Origin: Lysobacterales bacterium UBA2790
Lineage (GTDB): Bacteria > Pseudomonadota > Gammaproteobacteria > Xanthomonadales > Xanthomonadaceae
Assembly (NCBI GenBank): GCA_002352135.1
Contig: DEHW01000107.1
Coordinates: 4,783-19,599 of the forward strand
Reading direction: 5' to 3'
DNA: 14,817 bases
Below, piece after piece: positions 1-14,258 of this stretch. Made by a program: the position numbers and the translations under genes. Position 1 is the stretch's first letter. Each line of letters starts with the position of its first letter. The notes under the pieces were generated by a model. The model had not been told where the DNA came from. It worked only from the letters and a program-made list of their open reading frames with translations, and did not search any database.

Positions 1-345
1 TGGCTGCTGCTGGTGCCCAGATTGGCGGATCGACGTGAACTGACTGACCTGGATGCCGCGCAACAGGCGCAACTGATGCGCGAAATCGACCTCAGCTCGC
101 GCCTGTTGCTGAAGGTCGCCAAGCCAACCAAGCTCAATACCGCCGCGCTCGGCAATATCGTCGAGCAACTGCATGTCCATGTCGTTGCGCGCCATGTTGG
201 CGACGCCGCTTGGCCCGGACCGATCTGGGGCGTGGGACAGGCTGAAGCCCGCGATGATGCGTACTGGATGAACGAACGTCAGGTCTTGCTGGAGGCATTG
301 GCCGGCCTTGATGACCCCAGCGACGTGGCGATTTCCGTCTCATGA
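1..345 (+). CDS. HIT-family hydrolase, 3' part (5' end outside window)
   Basis: The reading frame is open from the first base, so only the C-terminal part is present, about 114 codons. The protein contains Q-L-H-V-H-V-V-A-R followed by GDAAWPGPIWG, which is the histidine-triad region of a small HIT subfamily related to diadenosine polyphosphate hydrolases and nucleotidyl hydrolases. The third position of the H-x-H-x-H triad is Val rather than His. From memory this is normal for the subfamily whose motif continues into AWPGP-WG, so I do not read it as inactivation. The likely role is cytosolic hydrolysis of a nucleotide phosphoramidate or dinucleotide, but the substrate cannot be told from sequence. 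Its stop codon overlaps the pxpB start in ATGA, so the two are probably co-transcribed. Confidence 0.85.
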   Translation, partial: WLLLVPRLADRRELTDLDAAQQAQLMREIDLSSRLLLKVAKPTKLNTAALGNIVEQLHVHVVARHVGDAAWPGPIWGVGQAEARDDAYWMNERQVLLEALAGLDDPSDVAISVS

Positions 346-1094
346 ACGCCGTACTGCAGCCCGGACTCACACTGGAGCCACTGGGCGACAGCGCGGTGCT
401 GGCCGTGCTTGGCGACCGCATTCATCCCGACCTCAACACCGCCGCGCTCGCACTGGCAGACGAACTGGATCGGCAACGACTCAAAGGCGTGCTCGACATC
501 GTGCCCGCCTACGCCTCCGTCGCCATTCACTATCTGCCCCTGCGCATGGAAGTGCCTGCCGAGCAGAGCCGTCGCAAAGTTGAAAGCTGGATCAAGCAGA
601 CCTGGTCGCATCTGCATTGGGAAGCACATCGCCAACCGCAACCCGGCGCGGAAGACATCTGGAATCAAAGCATTCTGCCGGTACCCGTCTGCTACGGCGG
701 CGACTTCGGTCCGGACATCGACCACGTGGCCGCCCACTGCGGGATGTCGGTGGATGAAGTCATCGCCCGCCATAGCGCACCGATTTACCGCGTCGCCATG
801 CTCGGCTTCCAACCCGGTTTCCCCTACCTGCTCGGGCTCGATCCACGCCTGGAAACGCCACGTCTGGCCTCACCGCGCACCCGCGTGGCCGCAGGCGCGG
901 TCGGCATTGGCGGCGCGCAGACTGGCATCTATCCCTTGCCCAGCCCCGGTGGCTGGCAACTGATCGGATGGTCGCCGCTGCGCTTGTTTGATCCGCAGCG
1001 CCATCCCGCCACGCTGCTGCGGGCCGGATCGCGTCTGCGCTTCATACCGACCGCTGCCGAGGACATCGACACCGCGTCACAGGCCTCGCGATGA
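342..1094 (+). CDS. pxpB: 5-oxoprolinase subunit PxpB (KipI family)
   Basis: This 250-residue protein is a PxpB/KipI-family member. PxpB acts with PxpA and PxpC in ATP-dependent opening of 5-oxoproline (pyroglutamate) to glutamate, a cytosolic metabolite-repair reaction. In Bacillus the homologue KipI inhibits the sporulation kinase KinA. Visible family marks are GDSAVL near residue 15, GFQPGFPYL at 155-163, the PRTRVAAGAVGIGG stretch at 178-191, and PGGWQLIG at 202-209. The protein is slightly longer than the roughly 220 residues usual for the family, with the extra length mainly at the two ends. The ATG start overlaps the preceding HIT stop (ATGA), and its own stop overlaps the pxpC start in the same way, which points to translational coupling of a three-gene operon. 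Confidence 0.93.
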   Translation: MNAVLQPGLTLEPLGDSAVLAVLGDRIHPDLNTAALALADELDRQRLKGVLDIVPAYASVAIHYLPLRMEVPAEQSRRKVESWIKQTWSHLHWEAHRQPQPGAEDIWNQSILPVPVCYGGDFGPDIDHVAAHCGMSVDEVIARHSAPIYRVAMLGFQPGFPYLLGLDPRLETPRLASPRTRVAAGAVGIGGAQTGIYPLPSPGGWQLIGWSPLRLFDPQRHPATLLRAGSRLRFIPTAAEDIDTASQASR

Positions 1095-2068
1095 GTCTGG
1101 AAATCCTCAAGCCCGGCCTGTTGACCAGCGTGCAGGATCTCGGACGCCCAAATCATCGCGCGCTCGGCATAGCGGTCGGCGGTGCCGTCGACACCTTCAG
1201 TCTGCAAGTCGCCAATGCCCTGGTCGGCAACGAGCCGCACGCCGCCGCACTGGAAATCACCCTGCTCGGCCCTCGACTGCGCTTCACGCAAGACGCCGTC
1301 ATCGCGCTGTGTGGCGGGCGTTTCGAGGCCAGTCTTGAGGATCTGGCCCTGCCCATGTGGCGCGCGATGCGCGTGGCGGCAGGCAGCATCCTCGACATCG
1401 GGCGCAGCCAGCGCGGCGCGCGGCTCTATCTGGCAATTGCCGGTGGCTTGAACTGCCCGAGGATTCTGGACAGCCGCGCCACCGCACTGGATGGCAGCTT
1501 CGGCGGATGGCAAGGACGCGCCCTGCGCGCCGGTGACAGTCTTCCGCTGAGCGAATGCTTCAGCCTTGGCCGCCACTGGCCGCGCCAAAGCATCGGCCTT
1601 CGTCTAGCGCGCTGGTGGGCCAATCCCGCGCCTGCCCTGACGCTGGAACCCATCGCCGAGATCGGCCTGCTACCCGGCCACCATCTGCCTGAAGGCAACG
1701 AAACGCTCTTCGACACCGAATTCCAGGTCGACTCACGATCCAACCGCATGGGCCTTCGCCTGGAAAGCGAAACGCCCATTGCCCTCGCCAACCAACCGAC
1801 CCTTTCCGAGCCGGTCAGCATCGGCACCGTACAACTGCCCCCCGAAGGCAAACCGATCATCCTGCTGGCCGATGCGCAAACCATTGGCGGCTACCCGCGA
1901 ATCGGCCACATCCCCAGCGCCGACCACCCCCGCCTCGCCCAACTCGCCCCCAGCGACCGCCTGCGCTTTGTCCCCAACACCGAAGCCATGGCACTGCAAC
2001 GCCTGCAACAACTGGATCGCCACCTGCAACGCCTGCAGGATGCAGCGAGGGATGCGTTGAGGGATTGA
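1091..2068 (+). CDS. pxpC: 5-oxoprolinase subunit PxpC (KipA family, carboxyltransferase-like)
   Basis: This 325-residue protein belongs to the PxpC/KipA family, the biotin-dependent carboxyltransferase-like subunit that pairs with PxpB in 5-oxoprolinase. Family signatures are the N-terminal LTSVQDLGRP at residues 11-20, GGAVDTFSLQVAN just after it, AALEITLLG near residue 55, FQVDSRSNRMGLRLE in the middle, and the C-terminal stretch running SIGTVQLPPEGKP then DAQTIGGYPRIG. Length and motif order are as expected, so the gene looks intact. It starts inside the pxpB stop (ATGA overlap). No pxpA (LamB/YcsF-type subunit) follows. The next recognisable gene begins almost 500 bp downstream and belongs to the accessory island, so pxpA must be upstream of the window, elsewhere, or lost. 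Confidence 0.93.
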   Translation: MSLEILKPGLLTSVQDLGRPNHRALGIAVGGAVDTFSLQVANALVGNEPHAAALEITLLGPRLRFTQDAVIALCGGRFEASLEDLALPMWRAMRVAAGSILDIGRSQRGARLYLAIAGGLNCPRILDSRATALDGSFGGWQGRALRAGDSLPLSECFSLGRHWPRQSIGLRLARWWANPAPALTLEPIAEIGLLPGHHLPEGNETLFDTEFQVDSRSNRMGLRLESETPIALANQPTLSEPVSIGTVQLPPEGKPIILLADAQTIGGYPRIGHIPSADHPRLAQLAPSDRLRFVPNTEAMALQRLQQLDRHLQRLQDAARDALRD

Positions 2069-2556: not shown

Positions 2557-4431
2557 ATGGAGAACTTCTCGTTGCCACAAGTGGTAGTGCGTGCGGGCCT
2601 TACCGGCCATCGGCCAAACCACTTGCGCATCTCGGCTGAACTTGTTGCTGAGCGCATCGGCCAAGTGCTCGACGGCATGGCGAGCGCAGCCACCCAGATA
2701 GCACAGGATGCCGAGCTGTACCTTCCCGCTGACCCAATACTTCGCGTCACCACCGGCCTTGCGCGCGGAACCGACGAGATCGGCGCAGATGTCGCACTGG
2801 CCAAGGGTTGGCAACTGCAATCGGTGATTGCGTTCGATCAACACAAGTTCGTCGATCTGGCGGTCGCCGATTGCAAGCCGGAAGAAGCCGCAGCCTACCG
2901 ACAACATCATGCCGACCTGGTGAGCCGATCCAGCAGCGTGCTCGAACTGCACGGCAACGAAAAAGGCGGTTTCCGGCGTGATGGCTACGAACTCACTGGC
3001 GAAATCATCCTGGAACAAGCCGATGTACTGATCGGCGTATGGGATGGCGAACGCGCACATGGCCTCGGCGGCAGCGCGCATCTTCTTCGACTGGCCATGC
3101 AGCGCGGTCTGCCGGTGGTGTGGATACACGCCACTCGGCCGGACGAGAAAATCGCCGTGTATCTGCCGGGACAACCGGGCAGGCAGGATTTGCACGCACT
3201 CCAGAAGTGGCTGATCAACAGCCTGCGACTTCCCCTGTCGTCCACGTCGCATGCAGGGGGCAGCGATACCGCACGCGAACACTGGGCAGATTTCGTCGCG
3301 GAAGATGGCGGACGTACCGGGCGTTTCATTCCGTTCTTCCAGTACCTGCTGATGCTCGGCGGCAAGGCGCCACCGCGTTGGCGACTTCCAGCTTCGGACA
3401 GCGAAAGCAACTGGCGCGACAACTGGCAACAGTTCCGTGATTCCATTGCAGAATTCGACGGCGGCATCGCAGAGCAGATGGAGGTTGCCTTGCAGCGACC
3501 ATTCCATCGCGCCGATCATCTGGCAGAAATCTACGGTCGCGCCTATCGCGGCGCTTACATACTGATCTACCTGCTGGCCAGTGCGGCGGCGACGGCGGGC
3601 CTATTGGGCTTGCTGGCACCGTTCTTCCATCACCACAAGCCTGTACTCGTGGTCTTCGAGTTGCTGACGATCATCACCATGATCGGCGTCACCTTGGTCG
3701 GGCGCAACAACCGGTGGCACGAACGCTGGCTGGAATACCGCGCAGTGGCCGAACTGTTGCGGCAAGCGCGGATGGGCCTTTGGACCGGGCAATCGCTGGA
3801 GCCTGGCGATCCCGAAAGCCACGGCAATCGCTCCAGTGCTTCTTGGACAAGCTGGTACGTGCGGGCCTGCGTGCGGCAGGTGCCGATGATCCAGGCAAAA
3901 GCGATGCCGGATTACCTACGGAAGGCGGCACGCACTATTGCGCGCCTGGAAATCGACGATCAACGCGGGTTCAACGAGAGAACCGCCAAGGTGCAGGAAC
4001 AGGTGCACGAACGGATGGAGATCATCGAGATATGCCTGCTTGTCGTGTTGATCGCTGCGTGTCTGGCGTTCCTTGCCGTCTTTGGTTTTGGGCCGCTCCA
4101 TACCTCTGAAGGCGGTAGTCATCACTGGTGGGCTCCCCAGATCCCCGAATGGATGACGCTGATTGGCGGGTTGGTTCCCGCTCTCGGTGCAGCCTTGCTA
4201 GGCATGCGCTCCCAGGGGGACTTTCAGGCCTACGCCGAACGCGCCGCCGCAACCGCCTCGCAACTGCGGCCGATTGGCGAAACGGCCGCTCGCTGGGACG
4301 ACCCCGGAAACGGCGATCCCGGCTTTGAAGACCTGCTCGACCTGATCGACCGAACCACCGAAGCACTGGCGGGTGACGTGTTTTCCTGGCGCACGGTGTA
4401 TCAGCGCAAGGTGCTGACCGTATCGGCCTGA
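2557..4431 (+). CDS. SLOG-domain protein with four C-terminal membrane segments (SLATT-like)
   Basis: This is a 624-residue protein when started at 2557. Residues 8-205 look like a Rossmann-type SLOG domain (the LOG/DprA/YpsA superfamily, which binds or processes nucleotide-derived ligands). The marks are GLTGHRP at 14-20, TGLARGTDE at 66-74, ADVLIGVWDG at 155-164 and GLGGSA at 169-174, followed by LPVVWI. The C-terminal half has two hydrophobic hairpins, at roughly 333-355/363-382 and 490-511/532-550. Each is combined with a conserved-looking helix (RWLEYRAVAELLRQAR after the first, FNERTAKVQEQVHERME before the second). This layout fits SLATT-type 2TM modules, which are known to associate with SLOG domains and are thought to be membrane effectors gated by the nucleotide sensor. 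Pore activity is an inference. It is the first gene of the plus-strand island, 103 bp before the TIR gene. Domain recognition is good; function is unproven. Confidence 0.8.
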   Translation: MENFSLPQVVVRAGLTGHRPNHLRISAELVAERIGQVLDGMASAATQIAQDAELYLPADPILRVTTGLARGTDEIGADVALAKGWQLQSVIAFDQHKFVDLAVADCKPEEAAAYRQHHADLVSRSSSVLELHGNEKGGFRRDGYELTGEIILEQADVLIGVWDGERAHGLGGSAHLLRLAMQRGLPVVWIHATRPDEKIAVYLPGQPGRQDLHALQKWLINSLRLPLSSTSHAGGSDTAREHWADFVAEDGGRTGRFIPFFQYLLMLGGKAPPRWRLPASDSESNWRDNWQQFRDSIAEFDGGIAEQMEVALQRPFHRADHLAEIYGRAYRGAYILIYLLASAAATAGLLGLLAPFFHHHKPVLVVFELLTIITMIGVTLVGRNNRWHERWLEYRAVAELLRQARMGLWTGQSLEPGDPESHGNRSSASWTSWYVRACVRQVPMIQAKAMPDYLRKAARTIARLEIDDQRGFNERTAKVQEQVHERMEIIEICLLVVLIAACLAFLAVFGFGPLHTSEGGSHHWWAPQIPEWMTLIGGLVPALGAALLGMRSQGDFQAYAERAAATASQLRPIGETAARWDDPGNGDPGFEDLLDLIDRTTEALAGDVFSWRTVYQRKVLTVSA

Positions 4432-4534
4432 CCTTTTGCCTGCTGCGCACATCCATGTCTAAGCCACATTCGTTGCACTCCAAAGCAAAGCTTGCATCCA
4501 TTCCGAGACAACCCGCCAACCGGACTCCAAACCC

Positions 4535-5830
4535 ATGAAAGGCACGTCCACGCGAACCCACGATGTTTTCATCAGCTACTCCCGCCGCGACCAGAAGATT
4601 GCGCAGTCGGTATGCGCCTTGCTCGAACAGCAAGGCATCCGCTGCTGGGTCGATTACCGCGACATTCCCGGCGGCGAAAGCTGGCCGGGACAGCTTGTGA
4701 AAGCCATCACGGGCGCCCGCGTGCTCGTGATGATCTGGTCGCCAGAATCCAACGCATCCAATCAGGTGTTCCGAGAGGTTTCCAATGCGCTGGAAGCGGG
4801 CGTCACGGTTATCCCATTCCGGATCAGCGAGGTCGAACCATCGGAGCAATTGAAATTCTACTTCACGAACATCAACTGGATGGATGCCGTCACCGAGCCG
4901 ATCGAAGAACACATCAAGCGATTGGCGAGCCGTATCAAGGGTCTGCTCGGCGGAACGATAATGGACCTGCCGCCGCCGTCATCGTCATCATCATCGAGAA
5001 ACGCACGGGTAAAGTGGATCGCGCCTATTGCGATTGCCGGTGTCGTGCTGGTCGGCTTGGCATGGTGGAAACCGCAAGTGTCAGGAAGCCGTGCCGACCG
5101 ACCTTCCGCTGATTCGAGTGATTCAGTGCGAGTAATCGCAGACACAGCACCAAAGTTGTCGTTGGCGGAAAGCTTGCAAAACAGAATGAAATATAAGGAT
5201 TATCTTGATTCCATATACAAGCAACTGGACTCAGGGGTTTCCAAGGAGCAACTGATCGCGGGCCTGCTTGTCGATTTGGGAAAGAAAAAATCCGAATTCG
5301 ACGATGTCTATGAAAACGTCGACATCGACGAGCACTGTGCGGCAGTATGGCAACTCTTCAATATTGGGAATATCCTGGTCATGAGATACCCCGATGTCAA
5401 GGCGTTGGGATGGGATCTTGTCGACAAGGCGGATGACGTGATGTCAGGCCTGACATGCTCGGACGCGGAGGCTTGGAGAAAATGGTGGGTCTTGCATGGC
5501 AAAGCGTATTTGCTGAGCTGGTACAAGCCAACGAATGGCGACACCCTTGATGAGGCCGAAAAATATTTCAATGGCGCCCTGGTCATACTTCAAAAGGCTG
5601 CCAACTACAACCCAAGTCCCGATTGGGACATATATACCGTGCTATCGCGAGAACAGAGGGCCCAGTTCTACCAGGAAAGGAGGGGTGACTTGGAACAGGC
5701 GAAGGCAGAGATCGACGATGCCCTGAAGATATGCAATGAACAGCCCGCGCTTCAGGAAAGCAATCCCGGGTTCAAGGCATGGTGTGAGGGGGCGATTCAG
5801 CGCGCCAAATCGATCAACTCGCAGCGTTGA
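4535..5830 (+). CDS. TIR-domain protein with one TM segment and TPR-like C-terminal half
   Basis: This is a 431-residue protein. Residues 8-138 form a bacterial TIR domain: HDVFISYSRRD at 9-19, GIRCWVDYRDI at 34-44, ARVLVMIWSPES at 61-72, VIPFRIS at 92-98, and the FYFTNINWMDA segment near 108-118 typical of the common TIR_2-like group. A Ser-rich linker (149-154) and basic RNARVK lead into a membrane segment at about 161-178, which predicts a cytoplasmic N terminus and a periplasmic C terminus. Residues 200-431 are helical, with TPR-like stretches near the end (DEAEKYFNGALVILQKA, GDLEQAKAEIDDALKIC). After the conserved Trp the sequence reads P-G-Q-L, without the Glu usually found there in NAD-cleaving TIRs, so it may be a scaffold rather than an enzyme. 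DNA for the C-terminal half is clearly AT-richer than for the TIR half. It has close downstream coupling to the lipoprotein gene. Confidence 0.85.
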   Translation: MKGTSTRTHDVFISYSRRDQKIAQSVCALLEQQGIRCWVDYRDIPGGESWPGQLVKAITGARVLVMIWSPESNASNQVFREVSNALEAGVTVIPFRISEVEPSEQLKFYFTNINWMDAVTEPIEEHIKRLASRIKGLLGGTIMDLPPPSSSSSSRNARVKWIAPIAIAGVVLVGLAWWKPQVSGSRADRPSADSSDSVRVIADTAPKLSLAESLQNRMKYKDYLDSIYKQLDSGVSKEQLIAGLLVDLGKKKSEFDDVYENVDIDEHCAAVWQLFNIGNILVMRYPDVKALGWDLVDKADDVMSGLTCSDAEAWRKWWVLHGKAYLLSWYKPTNGDTLDEAEKYFNGALVILQKAANYNPSPDWDIYTVLSREQRAQFYQERRGDLEQAKAEIDDALKICNEQPALQESNPGFKAWCEGAIQRAKSINSQR

Positions 5831-5875
5831 AAAATGAACTTGGGACGGTTGCTGAGTCATTTTGGAATAGCGTCG

Positions 5876-7158
5876 ATGCCCAAACCCACCCTGCCCCTAC
5901 TCTGCGCAGCCCTGCTCGCCGCGGGCTGCGCCACATCCCAACTGAAACCGGATTTCGCCGGGTTCTCCACCGCCTATGCCGACAACATGAACTGGCAGAT
6001 GCTGCTGAATCTGGCGCGTCTGGATCAGGGCCATCCTGCCTATTTCATGGCCATCGGCGAAATCCGGCTGGGGCGCAACCAGTCCGCGGGTGGCAACTTG
6101 ACCGCCACTTCCAGCCACGCCACCGGCGAAACTGTCGCCGCCGCCGTATCCAACACCGTCACGAACGTACTGTCCGGCACGCTGACGCCCAACGCCGCGA
6201 CTTCGGCCAATCCGACTTTCGTGTTCATCCCGCTCAACAGCGAGGAAACCGCCGAGCAACTGCTTTCGCCCATTGCCATCGACGTGTTCAACACCCTGCA
6301 CCAGCAGGGCTGGCCGGTGGGTCAGTTGCTGCACGTGCTGGTGGAACGCATCGAGGTGGACATTCCCGCCCAGAGCGACCAACCCGCGCAACGCATCGTG
6401 CTACCCAATTCACCGACGGGTGGCACGCCGCAATCGTTCGCTACCTTCCTGCGCGTGTGCGAGATCGTCCACGACCTGCAACGCAGCGGTGGCTTGAATC
6501 TCGTCGGCGAAGAAGGCTTCAGCGCGTTGTCGCAGGCCGAAGTCGAGAACATCAGCGCGAAGGAAGTGAGCGAGGCCGCCGACAAGAGTCGCGCCTGCAA
6601 AGAAGCGCCGACGGCAACGGCTGACAACTGGGCACGCGCCGACCGGGCTACCGCTTCCAGGCCGACCGCGACATCGTCGCGACGGTGCTGGGGCAGTACA
6701 AGGCGCGCAACCCGGATTACCGGATGACGCTGGACAACCACAACGTCGTGCTCTCGGCCACCGTGGTAAAAGCCGCCGAAGACGCACCTGAGCATAACGA
6801 CCCACGTTCGACGCTGATCCTGCGCTCCTTCCGCAATGTGCTGGAAGCCGTGGCCTCCGAACAGCGCGCCTTCGACGAACTGGCGCGCGACACGGATTTC
6901 CGCCAACGCGTTCCGCCACGGCAGTTGAGCCCGGTGCTGCAATTGGATTGGCAAGGCGTCGATACACCTCTCGCGTCCCCTGCGGTGCAACTGGACTACG
7001 CAGGCCACCACTACCAGATCACCGATCCTGCCGTCGGGCCAGCCGTCAATGCCGACAGCCGCTGGAACCGCGACGTGTTCCGCCTGCTGGTGAACCTGTC
7101 CTCGCAAGTCACCGTGGACATCACCAAATTCCAGCGGCAAGTGTTGGAAGTGAATTGA
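5876..7158 (+). pseudogene. Lipoprotein gene with a single-base frameshift near 6641
   Basis: The protein starts in one frame (from 5876, open to 6727) and continues in the frame one base earlier (open from 6625 to the stop at 7158). Restoring one base gives about 427 residues. Starting at 5876, residues 1-18 are a lipoprotein signal: Lys3, a hydrophobic core, and lipobox L-A-A-G-C with Cys18. Position +2 is Ala, not Asp, so outer-membrane sorting is likely. An in-frame ATG at 5834 is possible but would place the lipobox 14 residues further in. A mature region with NMNWQMLLNLARLDQGHPAYF resembles uncharacterised proteins I associate loosely with such loci; no enzymatic motif is visible. The best junction is GCCGAC to CCGGGCTAC: a C lost from GACCCGGGC would explain it. 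The downstream half (GYRFQADRDIVATVLGQYKARNP and onward) retains coding character, so the break is recent or a sequencing error. Confidence 0.75.
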
Positions 7159-7174
7159 ATCAACGGGAAACGCC

Positions 7175-10100
7175 ATGACCCACGACAAATCCACCACGCT
7201 GCGAATCTTCCTTTCCTCGCCATCCGACGTATTGCCCGAACGCAACCGCGCCGAGGCGATCATTCGCAAGATTTCCGCAGAACTGCCCGACATCGAGTTG
7301 GAAGCGGTGCGCTGGGAAGACAGCTACTACACGGCGGACAAGTCGTTCCAGGCGCAGATCGACAGACCTTCGGACTGCGATCTGGTCGTGTGCCTGTTCT
7401 GGTCGCGGCTTGGTTCGGAACTGCCGCCCGTATTCAACCGCAGGGATGGCAGCGGCCGCACCGGCACCGAATGGGAGTTCGAGGAAGCGATGGAAGCCGC
7501 GCGCAAGAGCGAGCCGGCCACGCCCGACCTGCTGGTCTACAAGAAAACCGTCGAACCGCAGTTCAAGGCGAGTGAGGCGGAACTTGGACTGGCGCAGAAA
7601 CGCGCGCTGGATGCGTTCTGGATGCGTTGGTTCCACGACGAAGACGGCCACTTCGTCGCCGGGTTCGACATGTTCGCCAGCGCCGACGAGTTCGCGGACA
7701 AATTCGAGAAGCACCTGCGCGAATGGCTACGCCGCCGCACAGACGGCAATTCTTGGGACATCGCCACGCGCGGCTCGCCGTTTCGTGGCCTGGCTCCGTT
7801 CGACGAAGCGCATACGAGCGTATTTTTCGGTCGCTCCACGATGATCAAGCGTCTCGCCGCGCGCCTACGCTCGGCCGCTGCCGACGGTTTTCCGCTGGTG
7901 TTCGTGCTTGGCGCCAGCGGTTCCGGCAAGTCCTCGCTGGTGCGCGCGGGCCTGATTCCGCACCTGCGCATCGCTGGCGTCACCGAACCTTTGGTCGCAC
8001 GCTGGCGGCGTGCGGTGACGACGCCGGATTCGCTCTCGCGCCTGGGTGAAGGAAACCTGCTCGCCGGTCTCGTCGCGCTGCTGCAAGGCGATGGCGTATT
8101 GCCGGAACTCAAACAGGGCGATTTCGCCAATCCCGAACAACTGGCCAGCCTGCTCGCCGCCAGCCCGGAATCCGCCACGGTCAGCCTGCTTGGTGCGCTG
8201 GATCGCTGGGCCAGTGCCGTGCAAACCGACGAAGGCCATGCGCAGCGGCCCGTCACCGGCCTGATCCTCGTGCTCGACCAGTTCGAGGAAATCTTCAAAC
8301 TGGAAGACGCCGAGCGCGCCGCACTCGCTCGCGCCGTGAGCGCCCTGGTCGAGACGGGTCGCGTCTGGCTGGTCGCAACCATGCGCAGCGATTTCTACCA
8401 AGCCCTGCAAGGCGCGCCGGATTGGCTGGCGCTGCGCGAACGCGGTCGCAGCTTCGACGTGACAGCACCGAGTGCGGCCGACATCCGAGAGATCGTCCTT
8501 GCGCCAACGCTAGCAGCCGGTCTGCGCTACGAGGAATCCGGCGCGCGTTCGCTCGCCGAAGACCTGGAACGTGAAGCCGCCGCGCCGGGCGTTTTGCCGA
8601 TGCTGCAATCGGCGCTCGAAGAACTGTTCAACGAGCGAGACGTGGCAAGCGGCCTGATGACGCTGGCCAGCTACGACCGCCTTGGCGGTGTGCAGGGTGT
8701 ACTGGCCGAACGCGCGGAGCGGGTATTCGGCGAGCTCGACTCGCAGGCGCAAGGCGCGCTTTCCGAGGTGCTTGGCAAACTCGCCGATTTCGATACTGAG
8801 GCTGGTCACGAATCTCCAGTCGCACGTGCTGCGCAGCTGTCCGACTTCGGCGACGACACGCCAGCGCGTCGCATGGGTGATCGCCTGCTTGCAGAACGTC
8901 TGTTGTTGCCGATTTCCGATATATCGGATGCCGGTGAAAATAAGGAATTCACCGCATGGTCTGGCCATGTGCGCGTAGCACACGAAAGTCTGTTCTTGCG
9001 CTGGCCGCGCGCGCAGGAGCAACTTGCCGCCGATCGTGCCGATCTGGAGTTGCGCCGACGCTTGAACGGCGATGCAGCGAACCATGTTGCAGCTGGCGCA
9101 AAAGACGCCAAAACTGCACGCACTCTGCTGCTCGATGGTCTGCGCCTTGCCGAAGGTCGCGATCTGTTGAAACGGCGGCCCGATCTGCTTACTGCGGATG
9201 CTCGGCGATTCATCGCCGATTCCGACCGTCAAGCCAAAGCGAAAAGCCGACGCGCGTGGACAATTGCAGCATCCTTGATTGTCGCATTCGGATTGATCGC
9301 GATTTACGCTGGCTGGTCAGCAAGCCGGGCACAGTCGAATTTACGCCTTGCCCAAGGTACGGTGGATCGTGTGCTGGACACGCTGCAAAGCCCCCAGATG
9401 GATCAGGTGCGCGGCTTCCACCTTGTTCAATCCCGGCTTTTGGATGAGCTTGTTCCTTTGGCAGGGCAACTGGCTGAACTGGAATCGCCGGAATCCAGCC
9501 CCGCTGGCGTATTGCGCGCCGCCAAACTGAATTTGTCGCAGGCCAATCTTCTCGACGGCCGGGGAGAAAAGAAAGAATCATCATTGATATATCGAGATAC
9601 TTATCGATGGATTGACGCACAGGATTCTGCGGACATCACGCCGGAAATGCGAGAAATCCAGTTCGAGTGCCTCTACAAGCTGGCTCGAAACCGCTTTTTT
9701 CTGCCACCGGATATCTATGACCACGATGCTATGGTACACGCGGGCCGTGAACTATTTGATCACACATTTACTAACGGAATTTGGTACCGGCGAGAGCTAT
9801 ATGCTCAAACGATTGAGCAATATCTTCGAACCAATGGGAAGTTGGCTGATGCTCTGGCGATTATTCGTCGTGCGCGGCAGGATATAAGCAACTTTCCGGA
9901 AGATTCCAAAGACATTTCGAGACCTATCATCCTTAACATCTTGGAGAGCGAAGAAATGGTTGTGCTCGACAAGTTGGGCGAGGCCGCACAGCGCAATGAG
10001 CTTCGTTCCGCATCGAGTAGTCGTCTGCAAGAGGCAATGAGGCGGTTTCCTGTGTCGCGAGGCCTAGCCAGGCTCTATTTGTGGGAGTTGTTTGAGCGAG

Positions 10101-11362
10101 AGCGGGAGGCATATTCTTCCAAAGACGCCACCCGCCACGCAGAGTTGGTTTCGGAAATCAGGAGGATTGTGTCTCATTTCTCTGGTAGTGAGCCAACCTT
10201 TTTCGAGGCAGCTGCCGCAAAACTCGACTTGTCAGAGGCCGATTTCTATTTACATGTAGACAAACAGCCCCAAAAAGCCCTGCAAAGCATATATTCATCT
10301 CTCGACGGATATGCCCGTCTTTATGCAGGCCAGAGCATCGAATTGCCGCAGTTTGACGAATCAGCCACGGCGATTTCCATGCTCTCATCCATATTCGAGG
10401 AAATCGAGAAAAACACGCCAGAATCTTATCGAGCGACAATCACGGCCACCCATGCCCGCGAGTTGGTCAGCCGCAGTTCTCAATTCCTCAAGTGTGCGCG
10501 AGATCTGGGAGAGGGGTCAACCTGCCATTTTCTGGTCAGAAAAGCCACCGTATGGGCCAAAGATCGTTTTAAAAAGCAATTCGAAAATGCCAAGGAACAG
10601 GCGGAATTGCTTTTCTCTCGGAATGACTTATTTCTGGCAGCAGCCGTGGCAATGGTGCAGCGGGATCAGCAACAGCCTTCATCGGTACCGATCGCGGATC
10701 GGGAGTCGACTGAGCCGCTGTTCGACTACTGCTCCGCTGAAAGAGACTATGCGAAAGCACTTCATGACCTAGGAGAGATACAAGAGGCTTTGAAAATCGG
10801 TGGAAGGGTATTGCCTCAGTGTCTGTCATGGGCGAAAGAATATGATTTCGATTTTTACTTGCGTAGCAGCACTTTGGGGTTGCTCAAGCTTCAGGCATCA
10901 TTACTCTCGGCAACTGGTGATCATGTCAATGCACGCATTCTTCTTAAAACTTGCGTGGACATTGTTGACGAATACTGCGATGAAGATTTGGCGGACATGC
11001 TTGAAAATGGCAAGGGCGGCCCGGCAGATAAACAAGCCGCTGACGCTTTGCGAAACGGAAAAAGATTGCACTTAGTGCGTTTTACGGTTCCAGTTCGCAA
11101 GAAGGTGGGAGACGCATTAACGTTCCCGTTCGACATCTATATCAGCGAACTCTCGGACAAGCGGCACTACAAGGGTATCGAAGATCAGGCTATCTGGCTG
11201 GAACGGAATCGCGGTCTAGTCATCCCCCAAGATGTGCGTGATTCCTTTATAAAACTCGAAAACCTTGCCCGAGAAAACAAGGTGTCCTTTCCCGACTTGG
11301 CCAAGTACGCTTTGGGGGAAGCACAAAAAACCGAGGACACGCCAAAATCGCAGAACAAATAA
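7175..11362 (+). CDS. DUF4062-nSTAND1 NTPase with TM segment and long helical C-terminal region
   Basis: This is a 1395-residue protein, starting 16 bp after the lipoprotein stop with GGGAAA as ribosome site. Residues 8-125 are DUF4062, a TIR-superfamily domain (LRIFLSSPSDVLPERNRA; DCDLVVCLFWSRLG; GTEWEFEEA). Residues 203-224 (FRGLAPFDEAHTSVFFGR) open an nSTAND1 domain. Walker A is G-A-S-G-S-G-K-S at 246-253, Walker B is LILVLDQFEEIF at 363-374 with Asp368, and RSDFY at 404-408 is a probable sensor region. The domain runs through a winged-helix-like part to about residue 690. Basic KAKSRRAW precedes a membrane segment at about 695-715, so the NTPase is predicted cytoplasmic and residues 716-1395 periplasmic. 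That C-terminal region is helical and partly TPR-like but matches nothing I recognise. From about 9570 the DNA becomes markedly AT-richer. STAND proteins are signal-activated oligomerising switches; the trigger here is unknown. Confidence 0.88.
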   Translation: MTHDKSTTLRIFLSSPSDVLPERNRAEAIIRKISAELPDIELEAVRWEDSYYTADKSFQAQIDRPSDCDLVVCLFWSRLGSELPPVFNRRDGSGRTGTEWEFEEAMEAARKSEPATPDLLVYKKTVEPQFKASEAELGLAQKRALDAFWMRWFHDEDGHFVAGFDMFASADEFADKFEKHLREWLRRRTDGNSWDIATRGSPFRGLAPFDEAHTSVFFGRSTMIKRLAARLRSAAADGFPLVFVLGASGSGKSSLVRAGLIPHLRIAGVTEPLVARWRRAVTTPDSLSRLGEGNLLAGLVALLQGDGVLPELKQGDFANPEQLASLLAASPESATVSLLGALDRWASAVQTDEGHAQRPVTGLILVLDQFEEIFKLEDAERAALARAVSALVETGRVWLVATMRSDFYQALQGAPDWLALRERGRSFDVTAPSAADIREIVLAPTLAAGLRYEESGARSLAEDLEREAAAPGVLPMLQSALEELFNERDVASGLMTLASYDRLGGVQGVLAERAERVFGELDSQAQGALSEVLGKLADFDTEAGHESPVARAAQLSDFGDDTPARRMGDRLLAERLLLPISDISDAGENKEFTAWSGHVRVAHESLFLRWPRAQEQLAADRADLELRRRLNGDAANHVAAGAKDAKTARTLLLDGLRLAEGRDLLKRRPDLLTADARRFIADSDRQAKAKSRRAWTIAASLIVAFGLIAIYAGWSASRAQSNLRLAQGTVDRVLDTLQSPQMDQVRGFHLVQSRLLDELVPLAGQLAELESPESSPAGVLRAAKLNLSQANLLDGRGEKKESSLIYRDTYRWIDAQDSADITPEMREIQFECLYKLARNRFFLPPDIYDHDAMVHAGRELFDHTFTNGIWYRRELYAQTIEQYLRTNGKLADALAIIRRARQDISNFPEDSKDISRPIILNILESEEMVVLDKLGEAAQRNELRSASSSRLQEAMRRFPVSRGLARLYLWELFEREREAYSSKDATRHAELVSEIRRIVSHFSGSEPTFFEAAAAKLDLSEADFYLHVDKQPQKALQSIYSSLDGYARLYAGQSIELPQFDESATAISMLSSIFEEIEKNTPESYRATITATHARELVSRSSQFLKCARDLGEGSTCHFLVRKATVWAKDRFKKQFENAKEQAELLFSRNDLFLAAAVAMVQRDQQQPSSVPIADRESTEPLFDYCSAERDYAKALHDLGEIQEALKIGGRVLPQCLSWAKEYDFDFYLRSSTLGLLKLQASLLSATGDHVNARILLKTCVDIVDEYCDEDLADMLENGKGGPADKQAADALRNGKRLHLVRFTVPVRKKVGDALTFPFDIYISELSDKRHYKGIEDQAIWLERNRGLVIPQDVRDSFIKLENLARENKVSFPDLAKYALGEAQKTEDTPKSQNK

Positions 11363-11383
11363 ATCAACTCGTTACCTTGGGCT

Positions 11384-12505
11384 TCAGGCATCATCAAAAT
11401 GCAACATGGAAACCACCCGCCGCGCATACTCTGCCCCCATTTCCCCAAGACAATCCATCAACTCCACATTGTCCAGCGTAAACCCGCGCCGACTGAACTT
11501 CCCCGCCGCAATCACGTCGGCCTCGGTGATGCGCCGGTCGTAGCGCGCATAGAGAAACTTCGCGTCGGGATTGGGTCGGACCAGATCGCCCACTTCGCTG
11601 TCGAGCGGCTCGCCATAGCGACATTCGCCCTGCTGGCGGCAGAGCAAATCCTGCCACCACTGCGACGAACCGATCAGCGCGGCGGGCACCTGTTTCGCCA
11701 GACCGAGCAGGTGTTCTTCCAATCGTCCACCGCGCCCGGTGGCGAGGCTGCCGGTGCCGATGGACACCAGACTCATGCGTTCGGCGCCCTGCGGCCAGCA
11801 CAGGCGGTATTCGGGCAAGGTCGCCATCGTGTAGAGCAGATACGCCGGGTTGTTGAACGGCGTCACCGCACCGTCCTCGAAGGCGAAGGTGTTGCGCGTG
11901 ACCTCGCCGCTGGTCTGGTCCACGATGTCGATGATTTCCGGCGGAAAGAACGTCGGCGCGGCGGTGCTGGCGCGCACCAGTTGCCACAGCGGCAGGTCGA
12001 GGTTGCAGCCGGGTTTGCTGCGGTCGTTGTAGCGCGCCTTCGGGTTGTTCGAGATCGGCCACGGCGAGCCGGTGGAAGCGTTGCGGGTGACGACCAGCAG
12101 CAGCGTGCGCAGGCGCGAACTTCCGAGCGTTGCGGGTTTGCCGTCGGCTTCGACGAAGAAATCGCGCAGGAAGGCGGAAATGGGTTCGCGCGCAAAGCGG
12201 AAGCCACGCAGGCCGCCGAGGCTCAGGTTGTCCTTGGTGAACATGATGCGGGCATTTTCGCGGTACAGCCGGATCACGTCGTCCACCGCCAATCCCCACG
12301 AAAGCGCGGTGGCGATGATCGCGCCGGTGCTGGTGCCGCCGATGTAGTGGAAGTGATCGGCCAGCACCAGTTTCGGGTTGCCGCTGCGCTCGCGCAGCAG
12401 GGTTTCGATGCGCCGCGCGATTTTCAGTGCGAACAGACCGCGGATGCCGCCGCCGTCGAAGGCAAGCAGGCGCGCTCGTGGTGTGGGCGGCGTGGTCAAG
12501 TCCAT
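11384..12505 (-). CDS. Patatin-like phospholipase (CapV-like fold)
   Basis: This is a 373-residue patatin-family lipid acyl hydrolase. The oxyanion motif D-G-G-G-I-R-G is at 17-23, the nucleophile elbow G-T-S-T-G at 57-61 (Ser59), and the catalytic Asp of the dyad in F-E-D-G-A at 209-213 (Asp211); LVSIGTGS follows at 246-253. All catalytic elements are present, so activity on phospholipid acyl chains is expected. There is no signal peptide, which implies action from the cytoplasmic side. Related patatins (CapV) serve as membrane-degrading effectors in CBASS, but no CD-NTase gene is in this window, so it may answer to another signal. It begins 4 nt after the stop of the RyR protein gene, with GGAATGA as ribosome site inside that gene's end, indicating translational coupling. 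It converges with the nSTAND gene, 21 bp apart. Confidence 0.92.
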   Translation of the reverse strand: MDLTTPPTPRARLLAFDGGGIRGLFALKIARRIETLLRERSGNPKLVLADHFHYIGGTSTGAIIATALSWGLAVDDVIRLYRENARIMFTKDNLSLGGLRGFRFAREPISAFLRDFFVEADGKPATLGSSRLRTLLLVVTRNASTGSPWPISNNPKARYNDRSKPGCNLDLPLWQLVRASTAAPTFFPPEIIDIVDQTSGEVTRNTFAFEDGAVTPFNNPAYLLYTMATLPEYRLCWPQGAERMSLVSIGTGSLATGRGGRLEEHLLGLAKQVPAALIGSSQWWQDLLCRQQGECRYGEPLDSEVGDLVRPNPDAKFLYARYDRRITEADVIAAGKFSRRGFTLDNVELMDCLGEMGAEYARRVVSMLHFDDA

Positions 12506-12509
12506 CGGT

Positions 12510-14258
12510 TCATTCCGGTTTGAAGGCCCAAAGCTCGCGAATCTGTTCGCGGTCGTATTCCTGCGTGGCGTGGCTCAGTGCCGCGTAAGGGATGAGATCG
12601 GGATGCCGCATCCGCGCATTGTCGCGTTGCGGTGCGTAGCGCCAGCCGTCGAGTTCGCGGTCGATGCGCCAGGCGTCGTGTTCGATGGCGGCGAGTGCTT
12701 CGAGCAGTTCCGGCGTGAGCGTTTCGGGGAAGCCAGGGGCGTCCAGCGCGCGTCCGCTCAGGAAATTGGCGGAAAGCCATTTCACCGGCAGGTGATCGGC
12801 GGCGCGGCGGTTGGAACGGCGATAGGTTTCGGCCAGTTCGTCCCATTCGCGCAGCGCGCCTTGCCCGGCATCGACAGGACGCGACGTGTCGGCGCGGCGA
12901 CGGCGCAGGTAAGCCTCGTGCAGTTGCCGCGCCAGCCGTTCGCGCGGCGCGTCGGAAGGCTTGGGCTGGCAAAGTTCAGCCAGTTTGCCGAAGGCGTGGA
13001 TGCCGTTGTCTTCGCGTGCAAGCAGCGAATCGAGGCTCGTGGCGGCAGGCGCGTGGACGTGGATCGGGCACGGCGGAAGCGCGAGCCGCTCCATGTCGCG
13101 GAGCAGTTGGATGGCAAGCCGGATGTTCGCCACGCTCGATGCCGCCGCCACGACGATGCCCGTCCACGCATCAGCGCCTTCACCTTGAAGCCGCGCCGCT
13201 ATCAAGGCGCTTTCCGTGGCCACATCGTGCAGCACGAGGTCGGCGGCCCACCGCAAGGGCGTTTCCGGCGCTGCATCCGTTTCCGGGTTCAACAGATGCG
13301 CAAGATTCGGCACGCGCGCCAGCAGGCGGCTGCGGACTTCCGCCGCAGGCGCAAACCATTCGATGCGCGGTTTGTCCAAACCGCAGCAGGGCGAAACGCG
13401 CAGAAACTGGAGCGCCGTTTCGATGGCGGCATCGCCGATGCCGATCATCGCGAGGCGGATACGCGGCTGGTGCAGTTCCAATGCGCGACGCCCCCACAGC
13501 GGCGAGCCAAGCAACGCGACAGCGGCGGCGCGCGCCGGGTTGAACAGGTTCACGCGCACGCGCCGGGCGAGGCCGGTTGGCCGCACGATGGCGTCCTCGC
13601 GTTCCACCGAATCGGCCAGCGCCGGGTCGTCCAGCGTCACGATCAGATCCAGCGCCGTCTCGCGCGGCACGGTGGCGGCGACCAGCACGGCGCGGGCGAT
13701 GGCGAGGTTGCGCTCGTCCGAACCCGTACCGATAACCACGGTATCGGCCTGCGCGATGCTGGCCGAACGCAACACGTCCGGATCGGCGGCGTTGCCTTGC
13801 ACGCGCAGCAGTTTCGCGCCCGAAGCGTCGGACATGTCGGCAACGTCGATGGCCACGCACGACGATGCGGGCGCGGAGCTTCCGAACAGGCGTCCGCGAT
13901 CGCCATAGCCGCAGATCACGGTATGCCCGCGCAGCGAGGCGAGCCGAACCTTTTCGCGGGATTTCGCAAGAAACGCCAGCAACACCCGCCCGACCGCACC
14001 GAAAGCCACGAAAGCGCCGCCAAGCCGCGCCAGCACGAGCAGCCAGTTGTCGCGGCCCGGCTCCCCGCGCGAACTCAGCGTGAACAGTTGTAAGGTCTGC
14101 AACAGGCTGTCGGCGACGATCTTCACGCCCTGCGCAGTGGAAGCCACGGGAATCGTCGAAAAGTTCTTCGCTAGATGGCCCGTAAAACCCGCGATCAGCA
14201 CCGCCGCTGCCGCGATGGCAAGCACGTGCTGCCGCGATCCGGATTTGTTCGTACTCAT
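12510..14258 (-). CDS. Two-TM, TrkA-N/RCK-like protein with C-terminal RyR domain
   Basis: This is a 582-residue protein started at 14258, where AGGGAG lies 7 bases before the ATG. The frame is open for 58 more codons upstream, but that extension is Arg-rich, membrane-incompatible and has no comparable site. Hydrophobic segments are at about 11-30 and 72-97, joined by a non-cytoplasmic loop, with basic KSREKVR after the second. A TrkA-N/RCK-like Rossmann domain follows (HTVICGYGDRG at 112-122, with the GxGxxG dinucleotide motif; DTVVIGTGSDERNL at 172-185). The last 65 or so residues are a RyR domain: AIEHDAWRIDRELDGWRY, then HPDLIPYAALSHATQEYDREQIREL. The topology recalls 2TM ligand-gated channels, but I see no T-V-G-Y-G-type selectivity filter. 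RyR domains are proposed nucleotide-ligand sensors in conflict systems. It is the first gene of a two-gene operon with the patatin. Confidence 0.87.
   Translation of the reverse strand: MSTNKSGSRQHVLAIAAAAVLIAGFTGHLAKNFSTIPVASTAQGVKIVADSLLQTLQLFTLSSRGEPGRDNWLLVLARLGGAFVAFGAVGRVLLAFLAKSREKVRLASLRGHTVICGYGDRGRLFGSSAPASSCVAIDVADMSDASGAKLLRVQGNAADPDVLRSASIAQADTVVIGTGSDERNLAIARAVLVAATVPRETALDLIVTLDDPALADSVEREDAIVRPTGLARRVRVNLFNPARAAAVALLGSPLWGRRALELHQPRIRLAMIGIGDAAIETALQFLRVSPCCGLDKPRIEWFAPAAEVRSRLLARVPNLAHLLNPETDAAPETPLRWAADLVLHDVATESALIAARLQGEGADAWTGIVVAAASSVANIRLAIQLLRDMERLALPPCPIHVHAPAATSLDSLLAREDNGIHAFGKLAELCQPKPSDAPRERLARQLHEAYLRRRRADTSRPVDAGQGALREWDELAETYRRSNRRAADHLPVKWLSANFLSGRALDAPGFPETLTPELLEALAAIEHDAWRIDRELDGWRYAPQRDNARMRHPDLIPYAALSHATQEYDREQIRELWAFKPE

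Follow-up and report, generated by a model that had tools for sequence, protein, structure and literature searches.

A candidate modular envelope-immunity locus built around a recurring SLOG-4TM, patatin and lipoprotein gene unit

Gene content of the locus

We analysed a DNA stretch of 14,817 nucleotides from Lysobacterales bacterium UBA2790 (the whole stretch is called the window below), in which a candidate island at 2557-14258 encodes a SLOG protein with four transmembrane (TM) segments (SLOG-4TM), a TIR-TM protein, a lipoprotein, a DUF4062-nSTAND1-TM protein, a 2TM-TrkA_N(RCK)-RyR protein (RyR-TrkA) and a patatin-like phospholipase (Table 1). The window comes from a 76% complete assembly of 246 contigs and forms the right-hand portion of a contig of 19.6 kb, which stops at the right edge of the window. 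The first four genes lie on the plus strand in the order just given, with gaps of 3 bp between TIR and lipoprotein and 16 bp between lipoprotein and nSTAND, and they are followed by RyR-TrkA and patatin on the minus strand, so that the nSTAND and patatin genes are convergent with 21 bp between them. Profile scans of the window proteins found the domains named in a first-pass annotation of this DNA at the places it had given. Its choice of 2557 as the start of the SLOG gene was likewise supported, because the SLOG match begins at about 2554-2557 and a AGGGGAAG stretch stands upstream of the ATG at 2557; an earlier ATG, the first in this frame, stands at 2350.

Table 1 Genes of the candidate island in the window
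Feature	Position	Strand	Remarks
SLOG-4TM protein, 624 aa	2557..4431	+	YpsA-type SLOG at the N-terminus, then two 2-TM (SLATT/DUF4231-like) units
TIR-TM protein, 431 aa	4535..5830	+	TIR, one predicted TM, then about 250 aa of lower GC at the C-terminus
Lipoprotein, unannotated family	5834..7158	+	Lipobox LAAGC; frame split into 5834-6727 and 6685-7158
DUF4062-nSTAND1-TM protein, 1395 aa	7175..11362	+	Long C-terminal part of lower GC, DUF2610 last; predicted sensor/switch
Patatin-like phospholipase, 373 aa	11384..12505	-	GGGIRG loop, GTSTG Ser, DG Asp; predicted membrane-attack effector
2TM-TrkA_N(RCK)-RyR protein, 582 aa	12510..14258	-	RyR pocket H527 W530 H552 D569; 4 bp upstream of patatin

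The SLOG part of the first protein was modelled with block pLDDT (predicted local distance difference test) values mostly of 70-94, and its top Foldseek match was 2nx2 (YpsA; E 2.5e-4, TM-score 0.66 normalised to the target). According to a passage of PMC9503650, the YpsA-like SLOG clade is said to include sensors of cyclic ADP-ribose (cADPR), and a 3'cADPR pocket is described for the SLOG domain of ThsA in part of PMC11204291. The membrane part scores just below the cut-offs of SLATT_1 (40.3 bits, cut-off 41) and DUF4231 (21.5 bits, cut-off 24.7), a relative in locus L029 matches SLATT above the Pfam cut-off (31.6 against 26.3 bits), and the window protein scores 469 bits to its family profile, whose members include it. 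SLOG-4TM is predicted to be a signal-gated membrane effector. We found two types of SLOG, and that of the window belongs to the divergent type 2, like the second copy in L032.

The patatin (Pfam patatin, 70 bits) retains its catalytic motifs, and among solved structures it is closest to CapV (profile score 99 bits), the phospholipase of the cyclic-oligonucleotide-based antiphage signalling system (CBASS); its score to NF041079 (CBASS_lipase) is 88.3 bits, below the cut-off of 200. The TIR protein matches TIR_2 with 85 bits, has one predicted TM and fits the TIR component (ThsB) of Thoeris, and it matches a named Thoeris model only weakly (ThcB4, 30 of 220 bits). A Glu of this TIR aligns with that of SARM1 HKEIVTAL, which is catalytic in SARM1. 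The nSTAND protein scores 26.9 bits to DUF4062 and 268 bits to nSTAND1, and its C-terminal end matches DUF2610 (58 bits), a domain missing from the first-pass annotation. The lipobox of the lipoprotein has Ala at +2 after the Cys, which by the known sorting rule directs lipoproteins to the outer membrane, and it suggests such a location here. The lipoprotein gene of the window is not one open frame and switches between two frames at about 6625-6688, most relatives being single frames of about 430-510 aa, and the break may reflect either a pseudogene or an assembly error.

RyR-TrkA scores 43 bits to TrkA_N and 48.8 bits to RyR (PF02026, cut-off 27.4), and it has the layout of its family, in which 2TM, a TrkA_N-type Rossmann part and RyR follow each other and the inter-TM segment, TLQLFTL in the window, has invariant Phe and Leu. 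The four pocket residues listed in Table 1 have the spacing 0, +3, +25, +42, identical to that of the cADPR-cleaving phage enzyme RyDEP; sections of a 2026 preprint (PMC13232231) report on phage RyR proteins that use H75, W78, H100 and D117 to bind or cleave 2'cADPR and 3'cADPR. The same four residues occur with the same spacing in L043 and by alignment in the proteins P0070-P0073, the RyR of P0074 is without the Asp, and animal RyR retains the same His/Trp/His/Asp.

A recurring core and its variable modules

Comparison of gene neighbourhoods shows, at the level of gene content, that SLOG-4TM, the CapV-like patatin and the lipoprotein form a unit that stays together, to which TIR, DUF4062-nSTAND1 and the RyR-channel protein are recruited as variable modules. 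Relatives of the lipoprotein numbered 68 at E 1e-3 in a set of 5.8 billion proteins, none with a listed Pfam domain, and a scan of named genomes gave 18 lipoprotein loci (12 in Verrucomicrobiota, 4 in Acidobacteriota and 2 in Gammaproteobacteria), which home-built profiles divided into 12 close (>250 bits) and 6 distant ones (<200 bits). SLOG-4TM was found in 10 of the 12 close loci, a patatin of the window's subfamily in 9, and the full triad in the window and in 9 of the 12; neither SLOG-4TM nor patatin was found in any of the 6 distant loci. Among the exceptions, L034 is a contig of 7.7 kb and L036 one of 4.5 kb; the L036 genome carries SLOG-4TM and patatin on a different contig (L056). Another close locus, L031, has SLOG-4TM and lipoprotein with no patatin seen. 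At L031:5215-7596 (+), a SLATT-like membrane region is fused to an alpha/beta-hydrolase (Pfam matches below the cut-offs), possibly an effector swap.

The patatins of the close loci form one subfamily, 43-47% identical to that of the window; at E 1e-75, at least 3,891 patatins exist. Of the 19 lipoprotein genomes (window included), 12 had a patatin at E 1e-30, exactly one each, and for 10 of the 12 no more than 4.3 kb separated patatin and lipoprotein. SLOG-4TM proteins above 300 bits numbered 15 in 28 genomes, and 14 of them lie by patatin and/or lipoprotein, the remaining one being the only gene recognised on its 3.2 kb contig. The profiles A2 and A3 include members of sample A, so that the sample-A scores of those profiles are not independent; the linkage of the core was already visible in single-sequence searches made before the profiles. 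Tree distances of SLOG-4TM and patatin correlated with r 0.63 over the 17 loci with both, and the three gene pairs of the nine full triads gave Mantel r values of 0.91, 0.83 and 0.76 (permutation P 0.0002-0.0024), host relatedness being left in for both comparisons.

A second, independent sample was chosen so as not to select for the answer, using the patatin profile alone against 387 genomes from the phylum to which an Opitutaceae genome belongs (E 1e-90, 8 matches, 7 of them new). SLOG-4TM lay within 2 kb of patatin in 5 of these 7 Verrucomicrobiota loci, and DUF4062-nSTAND1 was present in 3. In the sixth locus (L064), a SLOG-only gene occurs with a TIR-kinase gene, and the seventh (L067) has RyR-TrkA at 7 kb, TIR genes and a divergent lipoprotein 0.6 kb from patatin (37 bits, hhalign probability 98%). 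Among nine more distant patatin loci of the window's class, SLOG-4TM was found in one (L046, the closest), a SLOG-only gene in one (L047) and TIR in four. Related sets also occur on plasmids. That of Rhizobium leguminosarum (L068) has, by annotation, DUF4231, patatin and two TIR genes, together with weak SLOG and DUF4062 matches. A Rhodococcus plasmid encodes a SLOG-patatin fusion of 560 aa near a TIR-nSTAND1 gene (L069:8425-10107 (+); SLOG-4TM profile score 57 bits, Pfam SLOG score 20 bits and below its cut-off), and the Caballeronia plasmid L070 has SLOG-4TM, TIR and nSTAND1-TM with a distant lipoprotein relative nearby.

The first-pass annotation had read the six genes as one system, and this agrees with the recurrence of the triad and with the patatin-seeded loci. 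Its alternative, that the blocks on the two strands are independent insertions, is contradicted by the linkage of the minus-strand patatin to SLOG-4TM and lipoprotein. The four plus-strand genes, whose co-occurrence it had suggested checking, are not the conserved unit; that is the core of SLOG-4TM, patatin and lipoprotein, around which the other three modules come and go. The RyR-patatin pair that it had singled out recurs in L055, where one gene separates RyR-TrkA from patatin, and is looser (6-7 kb) in L043 and L067. An RyR domain was found in 4 of the 28 genomes chosen for lipoprotein or patatin, and in three of them (window, L055 and, at 6 kb, L043) it lies by the patatin; the fourth, L058, is a 3.5 kb contig whose genome has SLOG-4TM and patatin on another short contig (L046).

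TIR_2 matched more of the neighbouring open reading frames than any other Pfam family among those listed (10 of 89), and in 13 genomes 12 of 47 TIR domains lay within 10 kb of the lipoprotein, where 0.23 were expected by chance, spread over 8 of these genomes. The TIR-TM and nSTAND1-TM proteins vary among loci in their C-terminal parts (FGE in L033, Sel1 in L043, WD40 in L045, TPR in L037), which in the window have a GC content of 0.51 vs 0.58-0.64 in the N-terminal parts, as expected of swapped receptor domains. In five nSTAND1-TM proteins, 5-6 K/R precede the TM vs 2-3 after it, a charge pattern which puts the C-terminal parts outside. Two further TIR proteins were seen near patatins: a SIR2-TIR protein encoded next to an nSTAND1-FGE gene and about 4.3 kb away from patatin (L043:18370-19830 (-)), and the TIR-protein kinase fusion of L064 (6761-8617 (-)), 0.8 kb from patatin and adjoining the SLOG-only gene.

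Proposed mechanism and its alternatives

Read together, these gene contents lead us to favour, if only by a narrow balance, a modular and probably anti-phage envelope-immunity system, in which TIR would make a signal, SLOG-4TM and patatin would be the effectors, and RyR-RCK would be a receptor or off-switch. Envelope surveillance would fall to the lipoprotein and to the C-terminal parts of nSTAND1-TM and TIR-TM, which are probably periplasmic. The nSTAND NTPase would then switch, and TIR would convert NAD+ to an ADP-ribose-type signal (ADPR or a cyclic isomer). The SLOG domain may bind this signal and open or assemble a 4TM pore, and the patatin would be switched on to cut phospholipids, so that the cell would be depolarised or lysed before phage release. 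The 2TM-RCK-RyR protein would bind the same signal and may be either a second channel-type effector or, in the window with its intact RyR His/Asp dyad, a signal-ending enzyme. A more specific form of this reading, which we put forward only tentatively, is a TIR-made ADPR/cADPR circuit in which SLOG (as in TRPM) and RyR R12 receptor domains would each sit on a channel-like membrane part, with a lipase and a lipoprotein sensor. RyR-RCK would then be a host-encoded RyR partner of a TIR system, acting as a gated channel or as a built-in signal-hydrolysing off-switch.

Several observations weigh against this proposal. The source of the signal is its weakest step, because TIR is not found in every triad: none was detected in L029, L030 or L032, and L030 and L032 are also without detected DUF4062 or nSTAND1. 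In the window, 7.0 kb lie between SLOG-4TM and patatin (16 other loci with both genes: 2 bp to 2 kb), the direct neighbour of the patatin is RyR-TrkA, and the SLOG lacks the Glu after GG[ST]; the distance, the divergent SLOG type and the RyR-TrkA neighbour indicate that the window is a rearranged or composite member rather than a typical one. It is also the only one of the lipoprotein or patatin loci counted to match all seven profiles, L043 lacking only DUF4062. The lipoprotein frame of the window is broken, and its own copy of the system may therefore be inactive. The whole SLOG-4TM model has a mean pLDDT of only 67, and the window TIR has 2 vs 3 K/R around its TM, so that charge favours neither topology. 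The RyR of L055, L058 and L067 has only part of the pocket (at least the second His is missing), and among the 9 patatin loci of the window's class that are more distant, 7 have no SLOG-4TM or only weak matches of 20-34 bits.

In a rival reading, the SLOG proteins would themselves be signal makers, by LOG-like base release, or self-contained sensors, with patatin as effector and TIR and nSTAND as extra alarms. We consider this unlikely, and certain details speak for it. L029, L032 and L033 each have two SLOG proteins, and the two types in one locus would be enzyme and sensor; the Glu after GGT is present in 7 of 10 type-1 SLOGs compared and lost in both type-2 ones (window and L032 second copy); and the Rhodococcus fusion joins SLOG directly to patatin. 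The triads L030 and L032, with no TIR, DUF4062 or nSTAND1 detected, also speak for it, whereas L029 carries a DUF4062 gene and the fusion locus a TIR. The strong enrichment of TIR near the lipoprotein also argues against SLOG as the maker, as does a closest fold, YpsA, whose clade is said to include cADPR sensors in the passage of PMC9503650 mentioned above.

It is rather improbable that the locus serves host envelope-stress or lipid-homeostasis signalling instead of immunity, with the lipoprotein and periplasmic domains reporting damage and patatin remodelling lipids. The lipoprotein, the several single-TM proteins and the chromosomal-type contigs of most loci would suit such a role, but the distribution is patchy: with at most 5 candidates per genome scored and centre genomes included, lipoprotein was found in 2 of 337 genomes of G061's phylum, and patatin in 8 of 387 genomes and in 1 of 396. 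The related sets on plasmids and the conflict-type partners SIR2-TIR, nSTAND and SLATT also point away from housekeeping. A mere accumulation of unrelated defence genes sharing a hotspot, with no joint function, is very unlikely. Module content and gene order do vary, and some neighbouring open reading frames match DpdE, ZorD, PD-T4-6 and MkoA models; nevertheless, the same subfamilies, close spacing, the fusion and the agreement of trees recur across phyla, and because the three core genes travel together in at least two phyla, the set is more than a chance pile. A CBASS variant with its CD-NTase (cGAS/DncV-like nucleotidyltransferase) beyond the contig end or elsewhere is highly improbable: the patatin is closest to CapV and also close to a cUMP-AMP phospholipase, but no CD-NTase was found among the window proteins scanned, a scan that ends with the contig, nor in the best 25 of 79 and the best 25 of 146 families listed for the 89 neighbouring open reading frames.

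Relation to known systems and further observations

The modular immunity system proposed here resembles Thoeris (ThsB TIR with ThsA), as parts of PMC11204291 and PMC7272460 describe it, in pairing a TIR enzyme with a SLOG-type receptor, and its TM-macro type in having a nucleotide-driven membrane effector. The window differs in that no SIR2 or Macro match, and so no ThsA-type effector, was found among the proteins scanned, in that SLOG sits on a 4TM protein, and in the addition of patatin, lipoprotein, DUF4062-nSTAND1 and the RyR-channel protein. CBASS with CapV shares the patatin effector; the window differs in that no CD-NTase was seen in it and in the low CBASS_lipase score reported above. 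The RyR residues agree with those given for phage RyDEP in sections of PMC13232231, whereas the window RyR is host-encoded, is fused to a 2TM-RCK channel-like protein and has a TIR in its locus. Animal TRPM and ryanodine receptors also combine SLOG or RyR R12-type domains with channel-like membrane parts, and in L055 a gene of the TRPM-associated SLOG family LSDAT_prok (7433-8089 (-)) lies between RyR-TrkA and patatin; the bacterial membrane parts are SLATT-like 4TM and 2TM-RCK.

Burroughs and colleagues reportedly described in 2015 a nucleotide-centred conflict network of SLOG, SLATT and TIR, which shares with our locus its set of domains and its predicted working, with TIR providing the signal, SLOG the sensor and SLATT the pore. 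TIR-SLATT neighbourhoods in firmicute phages are mentioned in part of PMC9503650. The first-pass annotation knew no named system of this composition, and we found none in the open-licence literature searched, nor any description of the lipoprotein-patatin-SLOG-4TM core or of the RyR-RCK partner, although the founding paper of the network may show some of the neighbourhoods. The SLOG-4TM, lipoprotein and RyR-TrkA proteins that were tested had no PADLOC match, and the defence-gene library searched has no model for the core except a generic phospholipase. Through this analysis, a suggestive list of domains becomes a defined recurring unit with a core of SLOG-4TM, patatin and lipoprotein. Should the ligand prove to be an ADP-ribose isomer, the locus would link immunity in bacteria to the domains with which TRPM and ryanodine receptors bind their ligands, and it would open a way to learn what RyR domains do in bacteria.

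The left flank of the island carries genes of ordinary function, namely a HIT-domain gene and two carboxyltransferase-domain genes, which we take to be of the PxpB/PxpC type. Divergent from the RyR-TrkA gene of L058 is a gene (127-1242 (-)) with a CARF-type, CRISPR-associated look, an impression by eye only. The distant lipoprotein branch (L038, L039, L041, L042 and L044) occupies a different gene setting. In L044, the neighbours are Band_7, DUF697, an ABC-type ATPase and a periplasmic binding protein, some of which have relatives in L038, L039 and L042.

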